From Dongia rigui (GTDB taxonomy: Bacteria > Pseudomonadota > Alphaproteobacteria > Dongiales > Dongiaceae): 64,000 nucleotides of DNA. The translations under genes were made by a program, and so were the position numbers. This document shows, one piece after another, positions 27,824 through 41,988 of this stretch (within the stretch, counting starts at the first letter, position 1; the number at the start of each line of letters is the position of its first letter). Location of the stretch: NCBI RefSeq assembly GCF_034044635.1, contig NZ_JAXCLX010000001.1:1426001-1490000 (forward strand). Direction: 5' to 3'. The notes below the pieces were generated by a model. The model saw only the letters and a list, made by a program, of their open reading frames with translations, was not told the origin of the DNA and did no database searches.

Positions 27824-27941
27824 GGGTTTGAGTCCTTCACGCCATCGAGACCGGCGTCCCGGTTGCCCCGTATCGGCGGCGAAGGCGCCCAATTTTCATC
27901 CTAGCCATCGCCCTGGCTTTTGTCAAGAACAAAATGGGAAC
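27824..27941. other. Non-coding DNA between element and DHA2 MFS gene
   Basis: Together with the element this makes a ~450-base gene-free stretch. The 118 bases here show no convincing coding frame or hairpin terminator with a T-run; I see nothing further in it. Confidence 0.5.
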
Positions 27942-39198: not shown

Positions 39199-39343
39199 AT
39201 TCAACTCCCAGAAACTGATTTTCTTTTGCAACTGGTTGTAGTTTGAATACTCCTAGGCGGTATTTCAAGCGGAATCTGCGCGCATCGGCTCCGATCTCTC
39301 GCCGCAAAATCGGCCCGCCGCGTCATTGCTCCGCGAAGTAATA

Positions 39344-39358
39344 GAACATATCATGAAC
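39344..39358 (+). promoter_or_regulatory. LexA (SOS) box, GAAC-N7-GAAC
   Basis: GAAC-ATATCAT-GAAC exactly matches the alphaproteobacterial LexA recognition pattern (GTTC-N7-GTTC on the other strand). It lies 18 bases upstream of the preferred start of the radical SAM gene, suggesting DNA-damage induction of the two-gene repair unit. Confidence 0.8.
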
Positions 39359-39376
39359 GAGCGGGAGGGCGCGGCG

Positions 39377-40585
39377 ATGGACAAGAAACTGGTGGGGAAG
39401 CTGCGCATCCTGGCGGATGCCGCAAAATATGACGCGTCCTGTGCCTCCTCCGGCGCGCCGAAGCGATCGGCCGGCAAGAATGGGCTGGGCTCGACCAGCA
39501 ACGGCATCTGCCATGCTTATACGCCGGATGGCCGCTGCATCTCGCTGCTCAAAATCCTGCTGACCAATTACTGCCTGTTCGATTGCGCCTATTGCATCAA
39601 CCGGCGCTCGTCCAACGTCGCGCGGGCGCGATTCACCGTCGACGAAGTCGTGGCGCTGACCATCGCGTTCTATAAGCGGAATTATATCGAGGGACTGTTT
39701 CTCTCCTCCGGCATCGCGCGCTCGCCTGACCGCACGATGGAGGAGATGATGTTGGTGGCAAAGAAGCTGCGGCAGGATCACGGCTTTGCCGGTTACATCC
39801 ATCTGAAGACGATCCCCGAGGCCAGTCCTTGGCTGATTGAACAGGCGGGACTGTTTGCCGATCGTCTCTCGATCAATCTGGAACTCCCCGACCGCGCGAG
39901 CCTCAAGCGGCTGGCGCCGGAAAAGGACGGCGCCAACATCGCCGGCGCCATGGATCAGATGCGCGAGCGCATCGTCGAAGCCAAGGCCGAGAGACGGCGC
40001 TTTGCGCCGGCCGGGCAGAGCACGCAGCTCATTGTCGGGGCCGATGCCACCACCGATACCGGCATCCTCGAGACCAGCGATCATCTCTATAAGGGGTACC
40101 GTCTGCGCCGCGTCTATTATTCGGGCTTCAGCCCCATTCCGGAGGCGAGCGCCGTCCTGCCGGTGAAGCCGCCGCCTTTGCAGCGCGAGAACCGCCTTTA
40201 TCAGGCCGATTGGCTGTTGCGATTTTACGGCTTCACCGTCCCTGAGATCGCGCAAGGTGCGCAAGCTGGCATGCTCGATCTCGAGATCGATCCCAAGCTC
40301 GCCTGGGCATTGAAGAACCGGCAGCTCTTTCCGCTGGATGTGAATGCGGCACCACGCGAGATGCTGCTGCGCGTGCCGGGTCTGGGTGTGCGGGTGGTCG
40401 ACAAGCTGATCGCGGCCCGGCGGCATGCCACCTTGCGTTACGGCGATCTCATCCGCCTCAGCCCGCATTTGAAGCGCGCCCGCGCTTTCCTGGTGACGCC
40501 GGATTACCGGCCGGCGCGCCAGTTCGACGCCGACGACCTGAGGTCCTTGCTGGTCGCCCCGGCGCAGCAGCTGAGCCTCTTCTGA
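39377..40585 (+). CDS. DNA modification/repair radical SAM protein
   Basis: A 402-residue radical SAM enzyme with the 4Fe-4S motif CLFDCAYC and a C-terminal helix-hairpin-helix (LDVNAAPREMLLRVPGLGVR), which suggests DNA binding. The family is named a putative DNA modification/repair radical SAM protein and is almost always beside a UdgX-type gene, as here, with stop-start overlap (TGATG). The ATG at 39377 has GGGAGG eight bases upstream. An earlier ATG at 39353 overlaps the LexA box and has no ribosome site, so it was rejected. The substrate is unknown. Confidence 0.9.
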   Translation: MDKKLVGKLRILADAAKYDASCASSGAPKRSAGKNGLGSTSNGICHAYTPDGRCISLLKILLTNYCLFDCAYCINRRSSNVARARFTVDEVVALTIAFYKRNYIEGLFLSSGIARSPDRTMEEMMLVAKKLRQDHGFAGYIHLKTIPEASPWLIEQAGLFADRLSINLELPDRASLKRLAPEKDGANIAGAMDQMRERIVEAKAERRRFAPAGQSTQLIVGADATTDTGILETSDHLYKGYRLRRVYYSGFSPIPEASAVLPVKPPPLQRENRLYQADWLLRFYGFTVPEIAQGAQAGMLDLEIDPKLAWALKNRQLFPLDVNAAPREMLLRVPGLGVRVVDKLIAARRHATLRYGDLIRLSPHLKRARAFLVTPDYRPARQFDADDLRSLLVAPAQQLSLF

Positions 40586-41988
40586 TGTATCGCGTCACCC
40601 TGCGGGAAGGCGCCGATCTCGACGGTTTCCGCGCCGCGTTGCGGCGCCTCATCGCCGTGCGCGCCCGGCCCACGGATGTCGCCTGGATTGCCGGCGGCCA
40701 GGACGCGCTTTTCGGTGCCGCGCCGCCAGCTGAGGCGCCGCCTGTCGCCCTGCCCCGCGCGGTGAGCGACTTGATCGGTGACGTCATCTGCCACCGCGAT
40801 CCGGAGCGCTTCACGCTGCTTCACAGCTTGGTGTGGCGCATCGTCAATGGCGAGCGGTCGCTATTGGCGGCGGCCGCCGATCCGCTGGTGCACCGCCTGA
40901 CGATGCTGCGCAAATCGGTCAGCCGCGACATTCACAAGATGCACGCCTTCGTGCGGTTTCGCCGCATCGACAGCAGCGATGGAACCGAGCGCTTTGCTGC
41001 CTGGTTCGAGCCGGAGCATTTCATCCTGGAGGCGGTCGCCGATTTCTTCGTGCGCCGTTTCGAAGCCCTGCACTGGTCGATCATCACCCCGGTCGGCTCG
41101 TTGCACTGGGATCGCGACACGCTAACCGTCGGACCAGCGGGCCGGCGCGGCGATGTGCCGGAAAGCGACGCCTTTGAAGCGGGCTGGCTGTGCTATTACG
41201 AGAGCACCTTCAACCCGGCGCGCGCCAACCCGCGCATGATGCGCCAGGAGATGCCGAAGAAGTACTGGCAGAACATGCCGGAAGCGCGCGCGATCGCCGG
41301 CCTGCTGCGCGCGGCGCCGCAGCGCGTCGCAGCGATGGTGGAGAAGGAGGCGAGCGTGCCGACAAAGCGCGATCCGCAAAAGGCCGTGGCCGCGATGGGC
41401 GATCAGGACCCGACCACGCTTGAGGCGCTGAACAAGATCATCGCCGCATCGGCACCGCTGGTGCCGGGTGCCACCCAGGCGGTGCTGGGCGAAGGGCCGG
41501 CCGATGCCGAACTCGTCTTTGTCGGCGAGCAGCCGGGCGACCAGGAAGATGTGCAGGGGCGGCCCTTCGTCGGTCCGGCCGGGCAGTTGCTGACGCGCGC
41601 GCTGGAAGAAGCCGGCATCGACCGCGGCGAGGTCTACCTCACCAATGCGGTGAAGCACTTCAAGTTCGAGCCGCGCGGCAAGCAGCGCATTCACCAAAAG
41701 CCGACCATGGGCGAAGTGAAACATTACCGCTGGTGGCTGATGAAGGAATTGGCCTTGGTCAAGCCGCGCCTGGTCGTGGCCTTGGGCGGCACGGCGGCGG
41801 CGGCCCTTTCCGGTCATGCCGTTTCAGTGACACGGGCGCGCGGGCCGGCCAAATTTGAGAACTGGCCAGGGTTCATCACCGTGCATCCCTCCTATCTGCT
41901 GCGTATTCCAGAAGCAGCGGCCAAGAAGGCGGCGTATGCGGAATTTCTCGATGACCTGCGCAACATCCGCCGCATCGTCGCCAATTGA
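40585..41988 (+). CDS. DUF4130-UdgX fusion, uracil-DNA-binding protein
   Basis: A 467-residue two-domain protein. Residues ~1-250 are DUF4130 (LLHSLVWRIVNGERSLLA, KKYWQNMPEA). Residues ~275-467 are a UdgX-type uracil-DNA glycosylase domain with GEQPGDQEDVQG, TNAVKHFKFEPRG, the R-loop KQRIHQ whose His becomes covalently linked to the abasic sugar in characterised UdgX, and HPSYLLR. Unusually, this domain has no cysteines at all, although UdgX normally ligates a 4Fe-4S cluster. It is co-translated with the radical SAM gene. Confidence 0.9.
   Translation: MYRVTLREGADLDGFRAALRRLIAVRARPTDVAWIAGGQDALFGAAPPAEAPPVALPRAVSDLIGDVICHRDPERFTLLHSLVWRIVNGERSLLAAAADPLVHRLTMLRKSVSRDIHKMHAFVRFRRIDSSDGTERFAAWFEPEHFILEAVADFFVRRFEALHWSIITPVGSLHWDRDTLTVGPAGRRGDVPESDAFEAGWLCYYESTFNPARANPRMMRQEMPKKYWQNMPEARAIAGLLRAAPQRVAAMVEKEASVPTKRDPQKAVAAMGDQDPTTLEALNKIIAASAPLVPGATQAVLGEGPADAELVFVGEQPGDQEDVQGRPFVGPAGQLLTRALEEAGIDRGEVYLTNAVKHFKFEPRGKQRIHQKPTMGEVKHYRWWLMKELALVKPRLVVALGGTAAAALSGHAVSVTRARGPAKFENWPGFITVHPSYLLRIPEAAAKKAAYAEFLDDLRNIRRIVAN

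Follow-up and report, generated by a model that had tools for sequence, protein, structure and literature searches.

Dongia rigui carries two adjoining genes, one for a radical SAM protein and one for a fusion of DUF4130 with a UdgX-type domain, behind a sequence with the form of an alphaproteobacterial LexA site. The locus raises the question of whether the pair is a damage-inducible repair operon and, if it is, which of its parts form the working core. We examined it within a window, by which we mean the whole 64,000-nucleotide stretch that was analysed (contig NZ_JAXCLX010000001.1, positions 1,426,001 to 1,490,000), and the features described below are on the forward strand at window positions. 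The reading we favour, on sequence comparison and at a rough probability of 0.6, is that of a LexA-repressed, damage-inducible two-gene repair operon in which the radical SAM protein and DUF4130 would be the core and UdgX an add-on.

The LexA box and the promoter

The box, GAACATATCATGAAC (39344..39358), is an exact GAAC-N7-GAAC, and 18 bases separate its end from the radical SAM ATG at 39377. Pattern and start both agree with the first-pass annotation, and 39377 is also the N-terminus seen in the orthologues. The alternative in-frame ATG, at 39353, falls within the box and is not the conserved start.

Taken by itself, the pattern is no more frequent than expected by chance in the window (2 observed, 1.4 expected) or in the genome (97, against 148 for a reversed control pattern), and this is the argument for regarding the box as a functionless chance match. 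We dropped genome-wide frequency as a means of judging the box, the bare pattern being uninformative in the light of that control; position and conservation in orthologues decide the matter. All 29 named alphaproteobacterial loci have the box no further than 150 bp upstream, and 24 of the 26 loci of a second set, which is mostly an even draw across the class, also have it upstream. One locus is in both sets (L016 is the same as L036), so that together, the window not included, 52 of 54 alphaproteobacterial loci have the box upstream of the radical SAM gene. The exact pattern is absent upstream of the other two (L136 and L137), and control patterns for spacing and for word gave 0-1 matches upstream of the same loci. 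With a LexA position matrix trained without the window sequence, the window box is the top site in the 64 kb at 27.8 bits, the runner-up having 21.7. The box is therefore more than chance, and to a chance match, confronted with matching positions across the class, near-empty controls and the top matrix score, we give hardly any credence. The LexA/SOS control proposed in the first-pass annotation thus came through the check on box conservation, and we consider it very likely that the operon is regulated in this way.

Within the box the spacer has the consensus A-T/A-A-T/A (52 unique promoters), from which TATCAT (39349..39354) is a putative -10 element, so that the -10 element would sit inside the LexA box. 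A putative -35 element, TTGCTC (39326..39331), lies 17 bp upstream of TATCAT, and 29 of 51 orthologous promoters have TTG at -20 to -17 relative to the box, with 7 or fewer at other 4-base offsets. The two hexamers are individually weak, and we treat the assignment as putative because a strict sigma-70 promoter scan of the window does not flag TTGCTC/TATCAT.

SOS context in this genome and in other phyla

The genome has its own lexA on contig 4 with the box GAACTAAACTAGAAC upstream, and an imuA-like gene with a box of the same type, GAACATAAAACGAAC; we name the latter “-like” because its match falls below the NCBIfam cut-off. A PA0069-family radical SAM gene (L103:1525-2796, contig 1, near 1166624), which we take to be SplB-like and of COG1533, also has a LexA-type box, GAACATTTCAAGAAC. 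In box type, promoter position and the company of lexA and imuA, the operon has no notable difference from the alphaproteobacterial LexA regulon.

The second GAAC-N7-GAAC in the window (27927-27941) has about 20 bases in common with the ends of a set of dispersed repeats. These repeats (L105, L116, L117, L004, L123, L124 and further copies in the genome) terminate exactly at a GAAC-N7-GAAC box, and on their opposite strand the box adjoins TTGAC-N8-AGGAATTTGATAC, in 8 copies in the genome with a control count of 0. Such repeats may serve as LexA-type promoters, in multiple copies, for some transcript.

The pair is also present in Bacteroidota, where CTAA-N5-TTAG, the motif of Bacteroidetes LexA-like repressors, occurs no more than 130 bp upstream in 24 of the 44 loci examined, a set that is not fully independent because several loci come from one genus, Mucilaginibacter. 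The exact motif is missing in the other 20, and CTAA/TTAG with a spacer one base longer or shorter was found in 0 of the 44. The Bacteroidota orthologues bear their own LexA motif, and SOS control of the pair therefore involves two unrelated LexA types. Single loci of Verrucomicrobiota, Bdellovibrionota, Planctomycetota and Lysobacteraceae (L049, L055, L060, L051 and L047) gave no clear result as to a LexA motif.

DUF4130 is the constant partner

The radical SAM gene (39377..40585, 402 aa) and the fusion gene (40585..41988, 467 aa) overlap by TGATG at 40583-40587. The first part of the fusion, about aa 1-235 (40585..41289), is a DUF4130 domain with 190.7 bits for TIGR03915 (cut-off 112.25) and 130 for PF13566 (cut-off 27), and the second part, aa 237-467 (41293..41985), has 297.5 bits for TIGR03914, the UdgX family (cut-off 189.95), and a Pfam match to PF03167. 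The earlier description of a TGATG-coupled DUF4130-UdgX fusion is thus correct. In a fold search with the whole fusion, the 50 matches listed were all of the UDG family or on the UDG part, with none for DUF4130.

Of 80 named loci, 76 have DUF4130 next to the radical SAM gene and on its strand, and for the 10 DUF4130 proteins tested TIGR03915 was confirmed, without UDG. From this pattern of association it is very likely that DUF4130, and not UdgX, is the obligate partner of the radical SAM enzyme.

UdgX as an optional part

The first-pass annotation had proposed a two-step response, with the radical SAM enzyme and UdgX acting on one lesion, which would make UdgX an essential second step. Operon coupling is consistent with this, as are the fusion of UdgX with DUF4130 in the majority of the alphaproteobacterial loci examined and the retention of the R-loop trap histidine in 51 of 51 fusions. 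However, none of the 44 Bacteroidota loci of the pair has a UdgX domain, and in the whole of 13 Bacteroidota genomes with radical SAM-DUF4130 no UdgX reached the cut-off (a single trace had 19.6 bits). In addition six alphaproteobacterial loci (L011, L134, L139, L140, L141 and L142) lack UdgX but have DUF4130, and they have kept the SOS box. UdgX, being missing both from those 13 genomes and from boxed alphaproteobacterial operons, is therefore dispensable, and the two-step proposal is not supported; we regard an essential UdgX as distinctly unlikely. That UdgX, where present, acts on the same lesion as the radical SAM enzyme is a separate claim, which we find rather doubtful. The distribution argues strongly for a working core of radical SAM protein and DUF4130, with UdgX very probably an add-on that could possibly improve the process where it is present.

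A UdgX-type domain without cluster cysteines

Using the motif definitions of PMC10359453 (R-loop KRRIH, motifs A and B), the domain has motif A as GEQPG, motif B as HPSYLLR and an R-loop KQRIH, in which Q replaces the first R. The R-loop histidine (H370) is present in 39 of 39 sequences in the alignment, and in a fold comparison the domain is 47% identical to MsmUdgX over about 200 columns. Mycobacterium smegmatis UdgX (PDB 6AJO and others) has the motifs GEQPG, KxRIH and HPSxLLR in common with it, and there the histidine forms a covalent bond (PMC10359453, PMC10776899). By the conserved residues the window's domain would likewise trap uracil-DNA covalently.

The domains differ in that ours is fused to DUF4130, has KQRIH as its R-loop and has no cysteine at all within aa 237-467, which leaves no [4Fe-4S] site of the known kind. 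UdgX as described so far carries a [4Fe-4S] cluster (PMC10359453), and we therefore refer to aa 237-467 as a UdgX-type domain and a cluster-less variant. It is not an isolated case: C-x2-C and the later cysteine, which other fused UdgX domains retain, are always either both present or both missing, and they are missing in 30 of 51 fusions; in the tree of the radical SAM protein the 30 fall on one side of one branch (support 100), as a single character change. The clade includes loci L016-L046, L146 and L147. The cluster-less variant looks to be still under selection for its active site. We found no paper on such a cysteine-less clade in a literature search that covered few subscription journals.

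The radical SAM protein

The radical SAM protein scores 543.4 bits for TIGR03916 (rSAM_link_UDG; cut-off 343.5) and has a Pfam match to PF04055. An alignment of 70 sequences, drawn from several phyla and with 52-77% identity to the protein in the window, has a mean column identity of 61%, and the CX3CX2C motif (C66/C70/C73) is invariant in it. The predicted model (pLDDT 86) has the radical SAM barrel, closest in fold to HydE, HydG, biotin synthase (BioB), MiaB and lipoyl synthase (LIAS), and with family score, cysteines and fold in agreement the call of a radical SAM enzyme is sound. By sequence, the PDB search gave no better than E ~0.35, to HydG. Relatives in phage-collection records H16-H25, which include two 240-kb Acinetobacter phage records, are about 45-55% identical.

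Preceding CX3CX2C there is a second cysteine triad, C22, C45 and C54 (39377-39598), also invariant in 70/70, as is H46 next to C45. Lipoyl synthase and MiaB-type enzymes have auxiliary clusters on N-terminal cysteine triads, and a natural guess is that C22/C45/C54 hold a second cluster, which would be a candidate auxiliary cluster. Leaving aside the C-terminal tail, the model is least certain at residues ~21-60, as expected if the loop is held by metal. Near the C-terminus (residues ~327-348) is a helix-hairpin-helix (HhH)-like motif, with a weak match to PF12836 (E 0.083; 13.4 bits, cut-off 27) and a core, R332-P334-G335-G337, that is invariant in the 70 sequences.

Spore photoproduct lyase (SPL) gave no family-model match and is not among the best 50 PDB fold matches listed, and because of its absence from those 50 the label “SplB-like” (PMC3765255) finds no support here. 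SPL/SplB (COG1533) and the PA0069 family are likewise radical SAM proteins linked to DNA repair and SOS. However, TIGR03916 is a separate family, with its N-terminal cysteine triad and C-terminal HhH-like motif.

The conservation of this protein also bears on a proposal that would reverse the roles, with the glycosylase as the main activity, removing misinsertions made by ImuB-DnaE2 after mutagenic synthesis, and the radical SAM protein as helper. Such an aim is suggested for the UDG system in the discussion of PMC8565304, and the box type common to the operon and the imuA-like gene of the genome is in keeping with it. However the glycosylase is the dispensable part and the radical SAM protein the strongly conserved one, and we think clean-up of this kind improbable as the main role.

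Distribution and history of the operon

Of 385 alphaproteobacterial species, 24 have a TIGR03916 match above cut-off, while none of the six other genomes of the genus has one, and the operon is thus not a core SOS function. In the nearest relative species (G001, same genus) the order of the flanking genes is unchanged, and between them there is a broken UdgX remnant, from the C-terminus of the domain (L167:6565-6830). The presence of the remnant at the same locus indicates that the operon was once present there and has been lost in this close relative. The corresponding interval in another genome, G003, measures about 150 bp and gave no match.

Relatives are encoded on 158 plasmid records and 10 phage-collection records. 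This spread, the patchy distribution and the NCBIfam wording, “putative DNA modification/repair”, would suit a pair whose role is DNA modification, or action against the DNA of phages or plasmids, and not repair. Against that are SOS control in two phyla, each with its own LexA motif, and the fact that no defence genes were recognised in the neighbouring ORF list, and we rate such a role as quite improbable.

Proposed mechanism

In the repair reading that we favour, LexA bound at 39344-39358 would cover the -10 region and block transcription. Damage would activate RecA, and RecA-stimulated self-cleavage of LexA would free the -10 region, after which both genes would be expressed and translated together. 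The radical SAM enzyme would work with SAM and a [4Fe-4S] cluster; C22/C45/C54 would probably bind a second one, and the enzyme would dock on DNA by the HhH motif. With DUF4130 it would then reverse or process a damaged DNA base. Where present, the fused UdgX would excise and hold uracil or an abasic site, so that the intermediate would be protected or marked.

The steps of this scheme are not equally firm. DNA as the radical substrate is suggested by the company of the gene and the HhH motif only, and we lean slightly towards radical repair of a DNA base; a modified pyrimidine as the lesion is a guess. We put forward tentatively a fuller version, in which radical SAM/DUF4130 would be a self-sufficient SOS-induced repair machine of undescribed chemistry with two Fe-S clusters, the tethered UdgX of one clade being an Fe-S-free covalent trap.

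Relation to known systems and significance

With regard to earlier work, SOS regulation of the COG1573-COG4277 pair has been reported in Bacteroidetes (PMC8565304), and that paper cites such regulation for Verrucomicrobia and Alphaproteobacteria from a 2016 Verrucomicrobia and a 2008 Caulobacter SOS study. The association of DUF4130, radical SAM and UDG is already in PMC3765255, and NCBIfam curates the pairing and describes TIGR03916 as a radical SAM family. With both the LexA link and the pairing already published or curated, the window holds a real instance of a known system, the TIGR03916/TIGR03915/TIGR03914 operon (COG4277-COG1573), with the same two genes, domains and SOS control. It differs from the COG4277-COG1573 UDG system as described in that its UdgX lacks the Fe-S cysteines and in that DUF4130, and not UDG, is the constant element in Bacteroidota. 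As far as we could find, four points are new: that UdgX is dispensable, being absent from whole genomes; the UdgX clade without cluster cysteines; the additional cysteine triad of the radical SAM protein; and the pseudogene remnant in the relative.

The UdgX-type domain that lacks Fe-S ligands offers a natural experiment on the role of the cluster, and a cluster-less UdgX could serve in uracil-DNA probes or base editors and may be easier to express. For the question of substrate, Bacteroidota without UdgX are the simplest hosts, and the retention of SOS control and DUF4130 in operons without UdgX shows which pair to purify.
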